Shown in pieces: positions 15,768-24,416 of a stretch of 64,000 bases of DNA (the stretch's first letter is position 1; the number at the start of each line of letters is the position of its first letter). A program made the translations under genes and the position numbers. The notes under the pieces are model-generated. The model was not told the DNA's origin. It saw only the letters and a program-made list of their open reading frames with translations, and ran no database searches. The stretch comes from Bombella pluederhausensis. GTDB lineage: Bacteria > Pseudomonadota > Alphaproteobacteria > Acetobacterales > Acetobacteraceae. Location of the stretch: assembly GCF_026385525.1 (NCBI RefSeq), contig NZ_JANIDY010000001.1, forward strand, positions 744,001 to 808,000. Direction: 5' to 3'.

Positions 15768-16595
15768 TCAGCTCTGCTGAAGCAGTTGCCGAGCAAAAGA
15801 CTTCTGTTTCCATGAAATCAGAGCATGAAGACCTTTCGCCAACCATCTCTGCATCCTGGAATGTGGGGTCAGACCCGATGTTTTCAGAATCATGGCCGTG
15901 ACACGATCAAGATGCTTCTGGCGGTAGAAAGACAAGGCACGCGCCATATAGGCCGCAATGCAGCTCTTGTGATCGTAACGCTGTACGCCAGATGAGTTGG
16001 TTATGTAATAAGCCGTTGCCAGCTCATCATCCTCACTTTCCATGACACGGCTCAGCGCAATCCGCAGGCGGAACCACCGTCCCAGCTTTTCCCGTTCCAG
16101 ATAACGATGCATATTATCGTAGAACAGCTTAAAATGACGGTATTCATCAGCGGCGATCTGCTTGCAGACAGCCTTCAGGACAGGTTCCTCCGTGGCATCA
16201 GCCAACGCCGTATAGAAAGAAGATGTTCCTGTCTCCACCATACAACGGGCAATCAGCTCTCCCGTACGAGAACCACGAATAGATGATGAAACTTCCGTAT
16301 CGATCTTATAGGCCTCCCTATATCGATTGAAAGCGTCCTCATAATTCCACTCAGGGTCAGCCAGCATGGCCCATTTACCCAGCGCATCACCGTGCTGCAC
16401 CTCCTCCTCAGCCCAGTTCTCTGCTGCATCACTAAAGCCAGAATCATCATGAAACACGTTCTGGAGATAATGCGTGTAGTCCCGTGCATTACGCTCCACC
16501 ACGGAGGCAGCCTTCACAAGCGCAAGGATATCTGGATTCACTTTTGTCGCATCAAAAGCTGCCCAGTCCATCTGATCAATCTGCCAATGTTTCAT
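15768..16595 (-). CDS. Ferritin-like diiron protein (acyl-ACP desaturase-like helical bundle)
   Basis: Protein of 275 residues, all-helical, with four carboxylate/histidine clusters spaced as in ferritin-like diiron enzymes: an early glutamate in SVVERNARDYTHY, the ENWAEEEVQHGDAL cluster (E-E-x-x-H), a later MVETGTSSFYTAL glutamate, and ADEYRHFKLF (E-x-x-H). The two ExxH pairs resemble soluble acyl-ACP desaturases and rubrerythrin-like oxidases. The precise reaction is unknown; oxidation of an acyl chain or oxygen scavenging are options. The start at 16595 begins the conserved MKHWQIDQMDW; the frame extends 12 codons to a GTG. It is divergent from bioB and 30 nt upstream of the M13 peptidase gene. 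Confidence 0.75.
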   Translation of the reverse strand: MKHWQIDQMDWAAFDATKVNPDILALVKAASVVERNARDYTHYLQNVFHDDSGFSDAAENWAEEEVQHGDALGKWAMLADPEWNYEDAFNRYREAYKIDTEVSSSIRGSRTGELIARCMVETGTSSFYTALADATEEPVLKAVCKQIAADEYRHFKLFYDNMHRYLEREKLGRWFRLRIALSRVMESEDDELATAYYITNSSGVQRYDHKSCIAAYMARALSFYRQKHLDRVTAMILKTSGLTPHSRMQRWLAKGLHALISWKQKSFARQLLQQS

Positions 16596-16716
16596 AGAGA
16601 CACACCCTCTTTCCCATAATGGCGTTAACACTTCATGTATGTGCCATATTTTTCAGATGGCATACTGAGCCGCTTTTGGGTAGGTGTAGGCGGCCAACCC
16701 TGGAGACAAAAGCTAG

Positions 16717-17785: not shown

Positions 17786-18580
17786 TTATTGTTCTTTGGC
17801 TTGCATTTTCTGGCTATCCGCCACCTGACGCAGAACATTATCAGCCGCCTGAATCTGCCCTGCTGCCCGTAAAGCCCGTGCTTCCAACAGGAGAGCCCGG
17901 CGCATGGCCTCGTAATTTGTTTCCTCCTCTCTGACTTGGGCCAGAGAACGAGCTTCATCAGCTGCCTGCTGCCACTGCTGATCCATCATCAACCGGCGTA
18001 CAAGCAACTCTCGCAGGTTTGCCTGATCTTCTTCTGCCTTACTTTTTGAGAGATGATTGATGGCATCATCAAGAACAGCCCTATCGGACAGCTCCGCTGC
18101 ATCAAGACCGATCATCCCATATGCCTCAAGGCTGACTGATCCATCCTCGCTTGTTTTGGCGATCCGAGCTTCCTCCTCGGAAGCCTGCCACTGCTGCCGC
18201 TCATAAAGGGCAGACGAACGAACAAGATGCAAATCAGCCTGCCGTGCATCTGTCCAGCCTCTTACCGTTAACGCATCAGAGACCTTACGCAGAGTTGCCA
18301 GACAGTCATCATAAGCTTTCAGCCGCAACTCACTTGTAGCCAGATTAAAGCCAGCATCATGAATAGCCTGCGGATCATTGCTCAAAAATGCCCGGTCCAG
18401 AGCTGTCGCATATTGCTGACGAGCCTGCTTGATATAGCCCAGTTTAAAAACGCTATCACCGGCCTGCATCATAGTGGCGTAGCGGCTATCCTCCCACGCC
18501 TCTTTTCCACCAGAACACCCGGCAAGAAGACTGGCAGATAGCGCAAGAGACAAAGCGGGAAGAAGGAAAGGACGCCTCAT
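17786..18580 (-). CDS. TPR-like lipoprotein of the MCE transporter operon
   Basis: Protein of 264 residues with a lipoprotein signal peptide (LLAGC, lipidated Cys22), then helical repeats resembling tetratricopeptide units (for example GYIKQARQQYATALDRA and AGQIQAADNVLRQVA). It overlaps the upstream MCE gene by 4 nt (ATGA) and is last in the operon sensor, permease, ATPase-like, MCE, lipoprotein. A role as a periplasmic or outer-membrane partner of the MCE protein is inferred from the coupling. It has no recognisable catalytic motif. Confidence 0.75.
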   Translation of the reverse strand: MRRPFLLPALSLALSASLLAGCSGGKEAWEDSRYATMMQAGDSVFKLGYIKQARQQYATALDRAFLSNDPQAIHDAGFNLATSELRLKAYDDCLATLRKVSDALTVRGWTDARQADLHLVRSSALYERQQWQASEEEARIAKTSEDGSVSLEAYGMIGLDAAELSDRAVLDDAINHLSKSKAEEDQANLRELLVRRLMMDQQWQQAADEARSLAQVREEETNYEAMRRALLLEARALRAAGQIQAADNVLRQVADSQKMQAKEQ

Positions 18581-19551
18581 TGTCTAACCTCCTTAGCCGG
18601 CAACCTACGGCTGTGGCGATGTTTATGACCACTGCTATGCCCCCCTAGAATCCACAGGCTACGCAGCTGGTCACTCAACTGACGAAGACTGTCCGCTGTT
18701 GCCTCAGCCTCAGCCAAAACAGCAGGTAGCTGCTCTGTTGCTTCAGCCACGTTATGAACGGTACGGTTCATGTCAGGAACAGACTTTTTCAACCCAGTAG
18801 TCATGCCGTGGACGTCCCGCATGGTGCCATTAGCCTCATTCAGCGTGATCTGGAGTTTACGCTCAAGCGGCTGTACATTCTCAATAGCCTGATTCAGAGA
18901 AAGCAGGATGCTATTGATACGCTGGGCTGTTTCTTCTTTTGTCAGAAGGGCACCGGCTGTTCCCTTACCTGCATGAAGATCAACCATGATCTCCCGTGCC
19001 TGCTTGGTAATCTCCACTACGTTATTCATGGCCGGCAGAAGCTGTGCCCTCAGATCAATCAGCGTCTGGACAATCATATCCGCAGGGTTGGGCTCAACAT
19101 TGGTATTTAGAACGGCATAGCCCCAATTCAGCGGCTCACCCTGCCCACGGGTAATTTCGATATACCCCGCTCCAGCGACCACCAGACGGCGTTTAATAGT
19201 CGCAACGCTATCACTCCTGATAAAACGCTCAAAATGAGGTTCAATCGTCCCTTCTGCGTACATACGGCCCGATTCATTAAGGTCGAGTTTTCGTATTTCC
19301 CCCACACGAACACCCATGACCTCAATGTCATTATTCACAGCCAAACCAGCCACGCCGCTTTCCGGAAGAACAAAATGAATGCGTCCTGCCGGGGTCAGCC
19401 ACTGTTTGAGGAACCCGACCTCCACCAGTGAGGCCGTCAAAATGACAATGGCCAACAGAACGAGCAGCCCTACCCATTCATCCATGAAAGAACTTCTGAA
19501 CAGAGGAGCTGCCAGACCGGTACGCCGACGAAAAAGCAGGGGACGCATCAC
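18577..19551 (-). CDS. MCE (MlaD-like) substrate-binding protein
   Basis: Protein of 324 residues with one N-terminal membrane anchor (about 24-45, DEWVGLLVLLAIVILTASLV), an MCE domain at about 55-135 including LPESGVAGLAVNNDIEVMGVRVGEI, and a long helical C-terminal region (about 150-300) that likely forms a tube or coiled coil. MCE proteins bind and conduct lipids between membranes as hexamers fixed to an MlaE-type permease. It follows the ATPase-like gene by 7 nt and overlaps the lipoprotein gene by 4 nt. The C-terminus is rich in His, Lys and Arg. Two in-frame ATGs at 19551 and 19548 are equivalent starts. Confidence 0.9.
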   Translation of the reverse strand: MMRPLLFRRRTGLAAPLFRSSFMDEWVGLLVLLAIVILTASLVEVGFLKQWLTPAGRIHFVLPESGVAGLAVNNDIEVMGVRVGEIRKLDLNESGRMYAEGTIEPHFERFIRSDSVATIKRRLVVAGAGYIEITRGQGEPLNWGYAVLNTNVEPNPADMIVQTLIDLRAQLLPAMNNVVEITKQAREIMVDLHAGKGTAGALLTKEETAQRINSILLSLNQAIENVQPLERKLQITLNEANGTMRDVHGMTTGLKKSVPDMNRTVHNVAEATEQLPAVLAEAEATADSLRQLSDQLRSLWILGGHSSGHKHRHSRRLPAKEVRQ

Positions 19552-19558
19552 ATATCTC

Positions 19559-20293
19559 TCACTTTATGAGACCATTACCACCAAGACGGAAACGCTGCAT
19601 GCCGGGTCTGGCATAACCTGCCCAAGCAGACCGCTCCGAGCCAATCCAGAGGACCGCACAGCCCCGCTCCCTTGCCACCGTCAACTCTGTAAAAAAGGCA
19701 TTATACAGTTCAACAGGCGCACCAAGACTGACCGGGTTTTCCAGCAAAAGCAAGGAAGGTCTGTTCATGAAGGCCCGGACATATTCAGAACGTTTCCTAT
19801 CAAGAGGTGAAAGTTTTTCAGGGAGCTGCGTTGGCAGACCCGGTAGACCAAAAAGCTGGGAAAGATGAACAGCCTCCGCAACCAGCTTGTCATAAGGCGT
19901 ACGGCTATGATGCAGGCTCGGCCAGAGGATGTTCAGATGCATTTCATAGAGGTCTATCCAGCCACTATCACCTGTGATGCGACCAATACGACCACGCAGG
20001 GCTTGGGCACGCCGTTCATCCAGCTCTGCCCAATTCAACCCCATACAGCTGACACTTCCCTGCTTCCCGTTCGCTTCCTCCTCTTTCTTGACAGGAAGAA
20101 GCCCGGCGCAGAAATCCGTGAACTGAGCGGCCCGAACATCATCCCTGCATTCCACAAACACACATTCGCCCGGCTCTATGGAAAGATTATACCTTACCGG
20201 CGGCAGTCCCGTAGAATCTGATACAGGAATGGCGTCATCCAGCTTGAGGACAAAGCCATAACCACTTTCTGAAAGGGTCGTCTTCTCAGGCAT
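19559..20293 (-). CDS. MlaF-position ABC ATPase-like protein with lost catalytic motifs
   Basis: Protein of 244 residues whose length, strand pattern and operon position match an MlaF-type ABC ATPase, but every catalytic motif is altered. Where GPxGxGKST should lie after GEC-VFV, the sequence reads ECRDDVRAAQ at the same spacing, so the P-loop lysine and serine/threonine are gone. The signature LSGGxxQR is LSPLDRKR. Walker B LLLDEP is LLLLENP, without the Asp-Glu pair. The H-loop histidine is absent in VLWIGSE. By established ABC mechanism it should not hydrolyse ATP. The frame is intact with normal overlaps, arguing for a maintained structural role rather than decay. It shares its start with the permease stop region at 20293. 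Confidence 0.8.
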   Translation of the reverse strand: MPEKTTLSESGYGFVLKLDDAIPVSDSTGLPPVRYNLSIEPGECVFVECRDDVRAAQFTDFCAGLLPVKKEEEANGKQGSVSCMGLNWAELDERRAQALRGRIGRITGDSGWIDLYEMHLNILWPSLHHSRTPYDKLVAEAVHLSQLFGLPGLPTQLPEKLSPLDRKRSEYVRAFMNRPSLLLLENPVSLGAPVELYNAFFTELTVARERGCAVLWIGSERSAWAGYARPGMQRFRLGGNGLIK

Positions 20294-21111
20294 CAGAAGC
20301 TCCCCAGAACAATGTCAACAAGCACGTTGATGACAAGAATGGACATGATTCCACGAGAGAAGCCCCGTGGCAGGAATGTTGTCAGATTATCTTCTGAAGT
20401 CACATCCATACCTGAAAGGCAGCAGCAGAGCCCAACACTAGCCCCACTCAGAAGAAACTTGAGGGGAATACCCACATAATCAACAAGCTGCATGCTGTTG
20501 ATGACCTCAAAGATGAAGGACCAGATCGACACGGTGACGATCCCCTTCATCCAGCAGGCCACATAACCCATAGCTAGGGCAATCACGCTGAACAGCGTTC
20601 CTAGCGTGATGCCACTCACAGTCGTGGCAATCGTCCGGGGCACGACAAAAGCCAGAAAAGGATCAATCCCCATCCCACTCAGAGTTTTGAGTCGCCCGCC
20701 CGTTGTCAGGTTCCCCATTTCGGTCAGCATCAGCATACCGGAACGCCCAAGCAGGATAACCCCCACAAGAATAGGCGCAATTTCCCGCAACAAAACGCTG
20801 GATAGAAGACTACCCGTCATCTGAGACATGCCAGCGAAACCAAGCCAGTACACAGCCTGCGATACCAGCCCCAGCCCGGTGATAAACGCCACAACCACCA
20901 CGCTGAAAAAACCGCTACCAACGAGCTGACGCAGGTTGCGCCGGAACTCAATAAGAACCGTCCGGCGCCATGCGCTGGGGTGTAGCATCTCATAGAGAAC
21001 ACCCCAAGCCCCACCAATCATGATCAGAAAGAAACGGGGCTGAGACCGGGAGAAGCGCCCAAGAATAGCCAGTCCGCTATTGATGATGGCAAAACGCTCC
21101 GAGAAATTCAT
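20293..21111 (-). CDS. MlaE-family ABC permease
   Basis: Protein of 272 residues of the MlaE/TrnI permease family, the membrane dimer that anchors an MCE hexamer. It has an N-terminal amphipathic region, five to six hydrophobic segments, and the conserved EMGNLTTGGRLKTLSGMGIDP loop and LREIAPILVGVILLGRSG motif typical of MlaE. Its start overlaps the stop of the sensor gene by 4 nt (ATGA), and its stop abuts the ATPase-like gene. It should move lipids through the attached MCE protein; direction and lipid are not evident from sequence. Confidence 0.93.
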   Translation of the reverse strand: MNFSERFAIINSGLAILGRFSRSQPRFFLIMIGGAWGVLYEMLHPSAWRRTVLIEFRRNLRQLVGSGFFSVVVVAFITGLGLVSQAVYWLGFAGMSQMTGSLLSSVLLREIAPILVGVILLGRSGMLMLTEMGNLTTGGRLKTLSGMGIDPFLAFVVPRTIATTVSGITLGTLFSVIALAMGYVACWMKGIVTVSIWSFIFEVINSMQLVDYVGIPLKFLLSGASVGLCCCLSGMDVTSEDNLTTFLPRGFSRGIMSILVINVLVDIVLGSF

Positions 21112-23492
21112 CGTTTCCCTACCACGCCACTCTCGCTTCTACCTGCCAGAATGTAGCTATTGGCAATCCCATTATTAGGCAGGAAGAACTCGCCCCGCAG
21201 ACGGAACAGGAACAGCCCCTGCAATGTCTGATAAGCACGCTCGGAAACCTGTATCTGCCCGCCATCAGGGGCATTGTGGGCAAGAGCTTCAGCCATCGTC
21301 AGCCCCTCACCCCACAGATTGAAAATATCGTGCCTTTCCCCGAAATGCGCCACAAGAACAGAGCCGATATCTATCCCTATCCGGAACATAAGCTGCGTAT
21401 TCATCTGGGCGATAACCATCAAGCACGCTTCACGGATACCGATGGCCGCCTCTGCAAGATGGACAGCCCCTTCAGCATCCGGCTCCTGCATGCAGCTTCC
21501 CAGAAAAATGAAGCGGTTTCCTGCCACCTGAATGGAGAACAGGCTGCGATCTTTGGCTATCGCTTCAATCTTTTCGGCCAGCTCAGCCACCAGCTCCAGC
21601 ATAGCCTGAGCTGTATCACGGTTGGACGAATAGGACTCGAAGAACTCCAACACCATGATCGGTACAGTCGGGTACAGACCCGGCAATGGAAGATCAGACC
21701 CCTCATTTTCATCAGGACGGAGAATAAAGCCTTCAACGATCCTCATTTGAGGTCTGGAGGCTCTTGTAGCGAGAGATGCGGATGCCTGCCCTTGTTCGGA
21801 GGCAATCTTCTTTTCTTCCTCCTGCACCTGACCAAAACGAACCGCCAAAACAGACGAAATGAGCATGATGACCCGATCAACTTCACCAAGCTGGATAGGG
21901 TCCTCCAGCATAATAGCGCCAACCGGGCGGTGTTCCTCCATCACAGGCATGAAGAAAAGATGGCTAGTTCCAATCATCCGCATGACAACACGCTGCACGC
22001 TCTGAAACCGCTGATCCCCTTCTGCATCACGCAGGTCTATGGAATGCCCCCCATCGAGATATTCGAATAGGCCAGGATGCCCATTCCGGGTTAGCTCCAT
22101 GCCGGAGCCATGGGCATCCTTCTCCCGATCGAACATATCTTCACAGAGAAGCCTGTCACCATCAGAAAGCAGGCGCCATATGCTGGCCCGGCGGGCTACG
22201 GCCCGCTCTGCCAAAGCTTCACAGAAATAAGGCTGCTCCTGCTCGGAATTGAGCAGCCCATCCATATTGGTAATTTTGAGAAGAACAGCATTGTCCTCCT
22301 TCTTTTTCACCTCAATGGAACTCAGCCCCTTCTGTAACCGTTCAACACGCCGCCCCTGATAGATCAGCCCCATGGCAAGGACCAAAGCCAGCCCAACGAT
22401 AACAAGAGAGAAATAAACAGCCTGCTTCTGAACAACGTGCGTAAAGCTTGCAAAATCGCTTTCAGGCGCATTCAGCAATAGCACCCATGAGCGTTTGGCA
22501 AGAGGCATGGCAGATGCAATGGTGACGTAATCTTCACCTCTGGCATTGACCATCCCCGTGCCGTCACCCATCACACGAAAGACATTCAATGCCCGAATGA
22601 ATACAGGTTGCGTCTTAGGATCCAGATGCACATCGGTAGCATCAAAGCCCGGCTTTCCTATATCCATCATGTTGTGACCAGCAATTACATGGCCACTCAA
22701 ATCCACAATGACAGCCTGCCCGCTCTTACCCACCTTGAGGCTGTTAACGAATTTCGTCAGCTGGTTCAGAGAGATGCTGATGGCAAAAACAACATGCCGA
22801 CCATCCAGCGTATGAAATGCCAGAGAGGCCGTAACAATAAACTGATGAGTCGACAGATACGGATAAGGGTCTGTCCAGTACAGACGGTTATCAGGTGACC
22901 TGTTCTCAAAACGAATGGCACCCGTGAACCATGGGCGCAGCCGTGGATCATATCCCTCTGCCGAAAGTCTATCGGTGGAAATGAGACGGCCGTCTTTATC
23001 TGTGATCCTGTGCCGGTAATAAGGAGCCCCGTCTTCCTGCTGTAGGGTTGTTTCCTCATACTCACCTTCACGGCGGGTCGACATCCAGAAATGACCCTGA
23101 TCGTCCGCCATGTAGAAACTATCCACATGCGGCATCCCCCGCAAGACGGAACGACCCAACGCCATGAAGGTCGCCGCATTCAGCTTTATGTCATCACTGG
23201 CAAGCATATTACTCGCCATGAATGAGATGCCAGTCGCAGGCGACAGATAGTGGCTAACCTCCTCGGTGATGTAGCGCTGCTGGCTCCTGAGCAGATTTCG
23301 CGAAAGCGTGATCGCCCCTTCCCGCATGGTCCGATAGGTATACAGTGTGACAAAGGCAATTGTCACAATGACGAGGAACACACCCAGAATTGGCCCGATG
23401 AACTGGAACAGCTGCCAGCGGCGCCCTGTGGTATCAATGGCAGGATTGATGATCTCATCTGTTGCCAAGGCTCTAAAATCCCCTTTGGTCAT
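21108..23492 (-). CDS. dCache-GAF-type membrane sensor with degenerate nucleotidyl cyclase domain
   Basis: Protein of 794 residues: membrane segment at about 27-49, periplasmic dCache-like sensor at about 50-350, second membrane segment at about 360-385, a GAF-like region at about 400-560, and a class III cyclase fold at about 595-785. The cyclase residues are substituted: the first metal Asp is Glu (MVLEFFESYS), the second is Asn (VAGNRFIF), and the GDTVNxASR motif is GEGLTMAEA, lacking the transition-state Asn and Arg. It therefore probably cannot make cAMP or cGMP. It is first in the MCE operon, coupled by ATGA to the permease. The start at 23492 is the first ATG clear of the divergent ygfZ gene; the frame extends further to 23594. 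Confidence 0.75.
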   Translation of the reverse strand: MTKGDFRALATDEIINPAIDTTGRRWQLFQFIGPILGVFLVIVTIAFVTLYTYRTMREGAITLSRNLLRSQQRYITEEVSHYLSPATGISFMASNMLASDDIKLNAATFMALGRSVLRGMPHVDSFYMADDQGHFWMSTRREGEYEETTLQQEDGAPYYRHRITDKDGRLISTDRLSAEGYDPRLRPWFTGAIRFENRSPDNRLYWTDPYPYLSTHQFIVTASLAFHTLDGRHVVFAISISLNQLTKFVNSLKVGKSGQAVIVDLSGHVIAGHNMMDIGKPGFDATDVHLDPKTQPVFIRALNVFRVMGDGTGMVNARGEDYVTIASAMPLAKRSWVLLLNAPESDFASFTHVVQKQAVYFSLVIVGLALVLAMGLIYQGRRVERLQKGLSSIEVKKKEDNAVLLKITNMDGLLNSEQEQPYFCEALAERAVARRASIWRLLSDGDRLLCEDMFDREKDAHGSGMELTRNGHPGLFEYLDGGHSIDLRDAEGDQRFQSVQRVVMRMIGTSHLFFMPVMEEHRPVGAIMLEDPIQLGEVDRVIMLISSVLAVRFGQVQEEEKKIASEQGQASASLATRASRPQMRIVEGFILRPDENEGSDLPLPGLYPTVPIMVLEFFESYSSNRDTAQAMLELVAELAEKIEAIAKDRSLFSIQVAGNRFIFLGSCMQEPDAEGAVHLAEAAIGIREACLMVIAQMNTQLMFRIGIDIGSVLVAHFGERHDIFNLWGEGLTMAEALAHNAPDGGQIQVSERAYQTLQGLFLFRLRGEFFLPNNGIANSYILAGRSESGVVGKR

Positions 23493-23567
23493 CCGGTATC
23501 CCGAAATGATACCTTGTATCCCATGCTGGAATAGGGCGAAGTTCCCTCTCCCAGATTCACCACTATC

Positions 23568-24416
23568 ATGCGGACAATGATGAAGCGCAACCATCTTTCA
23601 CGCCGTGCTGTCATTTCACTAACAGGAAATGAACGTATCAGCTTTCTAAATGGCCTCATAACCAACGATATACAGACTCTTTCACTCAATGCCAGCTGTT
23701 GGGCAGCCATGCTCAATGCACAAGGGCGTATCCAAACGCTCTTTTTCCTCTGGAAGACCGAAACGGCGCTTCTGATGGATCTTCCAGAAGAACAGGCCGA
23801 CTCTTTCATCAAGACACTCCGCCGGTTCAGGCTACGTGCCGATGTGCAGATCGAGCGTCAGGACAGCGCCATCCTGACTGGCCCTCCTGACAGTGCCCCC
23901 CCAGAAGGGGCCACCCTCCATACAATGGACCCACGCCATCCCGCTTTAGGCTGGCGTGCCATCGTACCAGCCTCCCTACCGACAACAGATGCGGATGATA
24001 CCACCCTACTGACTCGCCGTCTTCTAGCTGGCATCCCTGATGATAACGACATAATTGCCGGTCAGACGCTCGTGCTGGAAGCCAACATGGACCATCTCCA
24101 TGGGGTTTCATGGACAAAAGGCTGCTATCTGGGACAGGAGGTCACAGCCCGTACGCATTATCGGGGCCTCATCAAAAAACGAATCCTCCCCATCACCTCC
24201 TCTGATGGAAAACCTCTATCTGAAGAAGGCATTATTACCCTCGAAGGGCAGGATGTTGGCGAGCTTCGGTCTCATGATGGCCAATACGGATTAGCCCTGC
24301 TCCATCGCAAAGCATGGACTGCATCTGGCCTGATGCTGGGGCAACAGACCATAACACTAAACTGGCCAGACTGGCTTCCCAAAGATGAGAACACCCAGCA
24401 AGAGAAAGCACCCTGA
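23568..24416 (+). CDS. ygfZ: Folate-binding YgfZ/GcvT-like protein (Fe-S cluster repair)
   Basis: Protein of up to 282 residues of the YgfZ family, which uses tetrahydrofolate to maintain certain iron-sulfur enzymes. The diagnostic motif is KGCYLGQEVTAR at about 195, with the preceding NGLITNDIQTL and MLNAQGRIQTLFFL N-terminal barrel strands. Three nearby ATGs (23568, 23577, 23580) are possible starts and none has a clear ribosome binding site. The stop is followed at once by hisI. Confidence 0.92.
   Translation: MRTMMKRNHLSRRAVISLTGNERISFLNGLITNDIQTLSLNASCWAAMLNAQGRIQTLFFLWKTETALLMDLPEEQADSFIKTLRRFRLRADVQIERQDSAILTGPPDSAPPEGATLHTMDPRHPALGWRAIVPASLPTTDADDTTLLTRRLLAGIPDDNDIIAGQTLVLEANMDHLHGVSWTKGCYLGQEVTARTHYRGLIKKRILPITSSDGKPLSEEGIITLEGQDVGELRSHDGQYGLALLHRKAWTASGLMLGQQTITLNWPDWLPKDENTQQEKAP

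Follow-up and report, generated by a model that had tools for sequence, protein, structure and literature searches.

Introduction

Mycobacterial Mce complexes comprise MCE proteins and permeases of the YrbE/MlaE type, and their ATPase, MceG, is intact, is encoded elsewhere in the genome, and serves several MCE systems. Among ABC proteins more generally, asymmetric pairs in which one of the sites is degenerate are common, and FtsEX and ABC proteins of the Bce type transmit signals through changes in conformation.

In the Escherichia coli MlaFEDB complex, the coupling helix of MlaE, located between TM2 and TM3, contacts MlaF (PMC7790496). The MlaF variants Lys47Ala and Glu170Gln do not complement, and assembly of MlaF requires both MlaB and the C-terminal extension of MlaF itself (PMC7367683). 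The Mpc system of Brucella abortus comprises a STAS-MlaE permease, an MlaF, an MCE protein, and a PqiC-like lipoprotein, for which a trans-envelope bridge has been proposed, and MpcF is described as an MlaF homolog in a well-conserved transporter (PMC12436622). The MCE systems PqiABC and LetAB (YebST) have no ATPase in the complex (PMC12436622).

Here we describe an operon from Bombella pluederhausensis that resembles a natural, catalytically dead MlaFED-like complex and that is conserved across acetic acid bacteria and present in a few other Alphaproteobacteria. The operon bears on whether MCE lipid transporters require ATP and on which direction lipids take. In the literature searched, which left out most subscription papers and bioRxiv, we found no earlier description of the operon, of a dead nucleotide-binding domain (NBD) fixed in an MCE system, or of the pairing of such a system with a dead cyclase.

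Results and Discussion

A Five-Gene MCE Operon in Acetic Acid Bacteria

The window, i.e., the whole stretch of 64,000 nucleotides that was analyzed (contig NZ_JANIDY010000001.1, positions 744,001 to 808,000), carries a five-gene operon on its minus strand in the order receptor, divergent MlaE, PsA, MCE, and TPR lipoprotein, where PsA is our label for the dead ABC NBD encoded by the open reading frame at 19559..20293. The five genes are as follows:

21108..23594, minus strand: membrane receptor with dCache, TM, GAF-like, and degenerate class III cyclase domains
20293..21111, minus strand: divergent MlaE-type permease, 272 aa (Pfam MlaE PF02405, E = 1.4e-32, 113.5 bits, cut-off 22.5)
19559..20293, minus strand: PsA, dead ABC nucleotide-binding subunit in Bombella, 244 aa (motifs, AlphaFold model, and NBD structure matches)
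18577..19551, minus strand: single-MCE-domain protein, 324 aa, GTG start (Pfam MlaD PF02470, E = 2.6e-11; NCBIfam MCE family)
17786..18580, minus strand: TPR-solenoid lipoprotein, 264 aa (lipobox LLAGC, invariant Cys22)

Receptor and permease genes overlap by 4 nt, as do the MCE and lipoprotein genes, and the stop codon of the MlaE gene shares one base with the start codon of PsA, as the initial annotation had described. A gap of 7 nt separates PsA from the MCE gene in this genome, whereas the two overlap by 1–4 nt in most relatives. The MCE domain scored 44.1 bits (Pfam cut-off 25.1). The lipoprotein was modeled with a pLDDT of 92.2 and matched TPR folds, with a best Z of 22.3. Beyond bioB, the operon is adjoined by a gene for a ferritin-like or desaturase-like protein (15768-16631, minus strand; weak matches to Pfam FA_desaturase_2 and Rubrerythrin), which is present at Bombella loci except L047 and was not seen next to the operon in any other genus that we examined.

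Among 60 relatives searched, PsA was identified in every genome of the genus (11) and in 7 further genomes from the family, and the divergent MlaE and PsA co-occurred one to one in these 60 genomes. A profile search of 249 family genomes detected PsA in 76, representing at least 35 of 102 genera, and in a sample of the order PsA was present in 83 of 120 genomes, every one of them within the Acetobacteraceae. Beyond the family, the profile search recovered PsA only from G289 and G604, both members of the class. Scanning named genomes yielded 80 PsA loci from the following genera: Bombella, Parasaccharibacter, Saccharibacter, Gluconobacter, Swaminathania, Asaia, Tanticharoenia, Acidomonas, Komagataeibacter, Novacetimonas, Gluconacetobacter, Acetobacter, Commensalibacter, and Lichenicoccus. 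The operon was complete at all 80 of these loci, barring ends cut by contig boundaries, and at nearly all other loci as well.

Loss of Catalytic Motifs Across PsA Orthologs

The positions of the former catalytic motifs in PsA are as follows:

20123..20149, minus strand: CRDDVRAAQ (residues 49-57) in place of Walker A; Ala55 stands where the lysine would be
19790..19813, minus strand: LSPLDRKR (residues 161-168) in place of the signature motif; Asp165 is new and near-invariant
19733..19753, minus strand: LLLLENP (residues 181-187) in place of Walker B and the catalytic Glu
19637..19639, minus strand: former H-loop His, now Ser219

In addition, Gly108 takes the place of the Q-loop Gln. When aligned with canonical MlaF from the same genome, the CRDDVRAA(Q) of PsA stands opposite GGSGNGKS. 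The initial annotation had claimed that all catalytic motifs of this protein are changed, and every detail that we checked (P-loop, signature, Walker B, and H-loop) was borne out.

Motifs were counted in 134 PsA orthologs, or 73 after clustering at 90% identity, with 31 canonical MlaF as the control; since the family genome set and the named-genome set overlap, counts are also given after clustering. Whether the degeneration is kept in relatives had been proposed as a check, and among the orthologs aligned none had intact motifs: neither the Walker A Lys nor SGG occurred in any of the 134. The Walker B Asp was present in one of 134 (replaced by Glu in 70/73), the catalytic Glu in 10, the H-loop His in two (Arg being the commonest residue there, 44/73), and the Q-loop Gln in 28. 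In contrast, the lysine, Asp, Glu, His, and Gln were each present in 31/31 canonical MlaF. The former catalytic motifs of PsA are less conserved than their MlaF counterparts, but the residues now standing in for the catalytic ones are conserved in their own right. These include a P-loop motif, CRDxxRA (Arg50, 57/73; Asp51, 54/73; Arg54, 46/73; Ala55, 50/73), as well as Asp165 (72/73) and Trp112 (69/73). The stretch ALRGRIGR, which precedes the Q-loop, carries 3.6 bits compared to 2.6 for its counterpart in MlaF.

Judged by alignment and model, PsA is an NBD-fold protein that lacks every residue needed for ATP binding or hydrolysis, a property common to all known members. The earlier claim that the protein cannot hydrolyze ATP by the standard ABC mechanism is thus well supported, given that all motifs are lost family-wide and that the E. 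coli MlaF variant Lys47Ala, a comparable change, does not complement (PMC7367683).

Fold and Affinity of PsA

The AlphaFold model of PsA (pLDDT 89.6, pTM 0.87) adopts an ABC NBD fold. Comparison of the model with NBD structures aligned approximately 215 residues at Z values of 22–25 over the two-lobed NBD fold. The best match was LolD (Z 24.7), with FtsE and MacB also recovered; the comparison with MlaF (6xbd_I) gave a Z of 22.2 and an rmsd of 3.0 over 220 residues. BceA and FtsE were among the top PDB matches of PsA. The open reading frame of PsA ends where the last strand ends, such that the MlaF-type C-terminal extension is absent.

Profile scores from NCBIfam were higher for FtsE, LolD, and DevA-type NBDs than for MlaF. 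The window PsA had no match to the NCBIfam MlaF model (PRK11831) and was missed by Pfam ABC_tran, and the best member of the PsA family scored 3.8e-8 against MlaF compared to 3e-16 against DevA. In a tree with other NBDs, PsA formed its own clade with 100/100 support, its stem measuring 1.42 changes per site, and MlaF lay in another clade. Direct descent of PsA from MlaF is supported by neither the tree nor the profile scores, and the parent NBD is obscured by the long stem. As for an intact ortholog that might represent the ancestor, the 70-bit matches at the level of the class (G057, G406, and G581) proved to be ordinary intact ABC ATPases that are not linked to the operon.

Because its sequence is nearer to the DevA, FtsE, and LolD models and is missed by Pfam ABC_tran, PsA is, on sequence grounds, an NBD-fold pseudo-ATPase at the MlaF position rather than a degenerate MlaF. 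The placement of this gene at the MlaF position in the initial annotation therefore holds for gene order but not for sequence affinity. The remotest PsA members are as dead as the closest. Since the most distant members are equally dead and all PsA form one clade on a long stem, the simplest reading is that catalytic loss was a single ancestral event.

The Permease Interface and Other MlaF/MlaE Systems in the Genome

The permease encoded next to PsA scores approximately 114 bits as MlaE, compared to 258 for a canonical MlaE of the same genome. Its coupling helix was located between TM2 and TM3 following the E. coli structure (PMC7790496):

20659..20709, minus strand: permease residues 135-151 (LTTGGRLKTLSGMGIDP), the remodeled coupling-helix region

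In the window permease, Gly139 occupies the canonical acidic position and Lys142 that of the canonical invariant Asp. The first position is acidic in 43/43 canonical MlaE but Gly in 94/94 divergent homologs, while the second is Asp in 43/43 canonical MlaE but mainly Arg, Asn, or Lys in the divergent ones. Since the coupling helix of the permease is remodeled as well, both faces of the presumed NBD-permease interface have been altered together.

Three MlaE permeases are encoded in the Bombella genome that contains the window. The initial annotation had proposed a search of the genome for another mlaF, and this returned two intact MlaF (C8:167862-169336 and C8:25408-26711), which each adjoin one of the other two MlaE and are the only clear MlaF proteins that we found; no orphan MlaF was found in the genome. 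An Mpc-like operon of the same genome, at L055 (2890-6389), comprises an MlaE with an extra N-terminal part, an intact MlaF, an MCE protein, and an ABC_trans_aux lipoprotein, which is unlike the TPR solenoid of the PsA operon. The extra part has no Pfam match and is STAS-like by analogy. A canonical MlaF-MlaE pair (L056, 3860-5481) and a short MlaD-like MCE gene (L057, 5187-5705) are on separate contigs, so that the genes of a classical Mla operon do not lie together here.

These observations bear on whether the complex is driven by ATP in trans, i.e., whether an intact MlaF or another NBD binds to the divergent MlaE, either alone or in a heterodimer in which PsA is regulatory. MceG, which serves several MCE systems from elsewhere in the genome, offers a precedent for such an arrangement, as do the asymmetric ABC pairs with one degenerate site, and two intact MlaF are available. 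However, both already adjoin an MlaE of their own, PsA is conserved one to one with its own permease, and that permease does not have the acidic residues that canonical MlaE carries in its coupling helix. Moreover, a partner without a signature motif would leave the active NBD without a complete composite site. We consider ATP drive in trans unlikely, and the suggestion in the initial annotation of a second ATPase encoded elsewhere is disfavored by the absence of an orphan MlaF, the pairing of both MlaF with their own MlaE, and the changed coupling helix. Rather, the transporter encoded by the PsA operon probably runs without ATP, which is plausible because other MCE systems (Pqi and Let) function without an ATPase domain.

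A Receptor with a Degenerate Cyclase

The first open reading frame of the operon, as listed from position 23594, overlaps a divergent YgfZ-like gene. Since several relatives have stop codons upstream of Met35, the true start of the receptor is, from this comparison, probably Met35 (23492). Its C-terminal domain was compared with the active cyclase Rv1625c:

21108..21677, minus strand: degenerate cyclase domain of the receptor, residues 640-828

Relative to Rv1625c, the receptor carries the replacements K296Q, D300N, D365N, N372T, and R376A, in the residue numbering of that enzyme. In class III cyclases these positions hold the second metal Asp, the Lys and Asp that recognize the base, and the Asn and Arg of the transition state. 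Across the receptor family (n = 132), the second metal Asp was found in two members, the transition-state Arg in three, and the transition-state Asn in 18, and both receptors with the second metal Asp are without the transition-state Asn. Most members retain D or E at the first metal position. Family matches would name the receptor an adenylate/guanylate cyclase, although it is degenerate in essentially all genomes.

The cyclase residues rule out the receptor as a source of a second messenger. Given these dead residues, none of the five genes encodes a recognizable active nucleotide enzyme. One genome (G261, locus L108) encodes the permease, PsA, MCE protein, and lipoprotein without the receptor, and no receptor homolog was found elsewhere in that genome, which suggests that the receptor is not strictly needed. 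In Parasaccharibacter apium AS1 (L044/L152), a frameshift in mid-gene, either real or an assembly error, splits the receptor while the remaining operon is open.

Proposed Function of PsA

We favor, with somewhat better than even confidence, a role for PsA as a pseudo-ATPase scaffold or adaptor in an ATP-independent MCE lipid conduit that is probably gated by the receptor. PsA would fill the NBD slot beneath the divergent MlaE as a scaffold or adaptor and not as a motor, with two copies under an MlaE dimer, bound through the changed coupling helix. It would thereby hold the complex of MlaE, MCE protein, and lipoprotein together as an ATP-free conduit for lipids between the inner and outer membranes. 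The receptor may act on PsA by protein contact, at a place comparable to that of MlaB on MlaF, such that a periplasmic ligand sensed by the dCache domain would cause it to open or close the conduit. The direction of lipid movement could be set by a lipid gradient or by another energy source. Membership in the MCE and MlaE families is what suggests lipid as the substrate. The earlier alternatives of a passive transporter and of a structural spacer both remain, and are not mutually exclusive. More tentatively, the dead NBD and the dead cyclase might together form a protein-contact switch within an MCE lipid conduit that is receptor-gated and ATP-independent, in which case a former ABC transporter would have become a ligand-gated lipid channel spanning the envelope.

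A different possibility is that the complex serves chiefly for sensing and not for transport, with the MCE protein and MlaE binding lipid and PsA communicating their state to the receptor or receiving a signal from it. The dCache-GAF receptor is the first gene of nearly every operon, and both the PsA profile scores, which place FtsE, LolD, and DevA-type NBDs above MlaF, and the top PDB matches, which include BceA and FtsE, recall proteins that relay conformational signals. Yet FtsEX and Bce systems still use ATP, the known output domain of the receptor is itself dead, such that a downstream signal is not evident, and the lipoprotein and MCE protein point to a trans-envelope complex. We therefore doubt that sensing is the main function. 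It is more improbable still that PsA is an allosteric regulator of the permease that binds, but does not hydrolyze, a nucleotide or other ligand. PsA does keep the NBD fold, and the conserved basic and acidic residues of CRDxxRA in the old P-loop could bind another ligand, but ordinary binding of ATP is unlikely now that the signature, the H-loop, and both the glycines and the lysine of the P-loop are gone.

Selection Versus Decay

Within Bombella, PsA had a median dN/dS of 0.059, close to those of the MCE gene (0.051) and the receptor (0.060); the permease was at 0.036 and the lipoprotein at 0.136. These values are rough given that many pairs are near saturation at silent sites. The ratio for PsA nonetheless points clearly to purifying selection. 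Sequencing error and local or recent decay can be rejected given 73 non-redundant orthologs and a dN/dS of approximately 0.06.

Genuine decay was observed in one genome (G158; L116, 2532-7009), where the receptor, permease, and lipoprotein genes are split, PsA is shortened to approximately 169 codons, and the MCE gene is the only one not visibly broken or shortened; in its sister genome (G079, L117) the operon is intact. When selection is relaxed, the operon decays broadly, unlike the pattern in other genomes. That PsA is a decaying pseudogene, held open by chance or by translational coupling, could draw on the loss of every catalytic residue but is hardly credible given its low dN/dS, a frame that is open in nearly all genomes, the stretches ALRGRIGR and GLPGLP that are near-invariant even across very distant members, and the different appearance of real decay, which struck most of the operon. 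Beyond what the initial annotation had recognized, the degeneration appears to be ancestral and fixed, the five-gene make-up is fixed as well, and the cyclase of the receptor is equally dead. Loss of catalysis in both the NBD of a stable ABC permease and the cyclase of its receptor, with both partners still under selection, would be unusual.

Comparison with Known Systems

The presence of intact Mla and Mpc-like systems in the same cells provides an internal comparison for the putative ATP-independent conduit, and some carriers of the operon, such as Gluconobacter, are non-pathogenic and amenable to genetics. Like MlaFEDB of E. coli, the PsA operon encodes an MlaE permease, an MlaD-type MCE protein, and an NBD-fold protein together. 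It differs in that its NBD has neither the catalytic motifs nor the C-terminal extension, in that MlaC and MlaB are lacking (no STAS protein is encoded in the operon), in its changed coupling helix, and in the addition of a receptor and a TPR lipoprotein. With Mpc of B. abortus it shares a permease, an NBD, an MCE protein, and a lipoprotein in one operon (PMC12436622), whereas its NBD is dead, its lipoprotein is a TPR solenoid and not ABC_trans_aux, and a STAS domain is absent.

The remaining systems are more remote. FtsEX, LolCDE, and DevA-type NBDs are nearer to PsA than is MlaF in both NCBIfam scores and structure comparison, but their motifs are intact, they are functional ATPases, and their partner permeases are different. 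PqiABC and LetAB are built on PqiA/LetA membrane proteins and multi-MCE proteins rather than on MlaE with an NBD-fold subunit. Finally, whereas mycobacterial Mce systems depend on an intact MceG encoded elsewhere, the PsA operon encodes a dead NBD in place.
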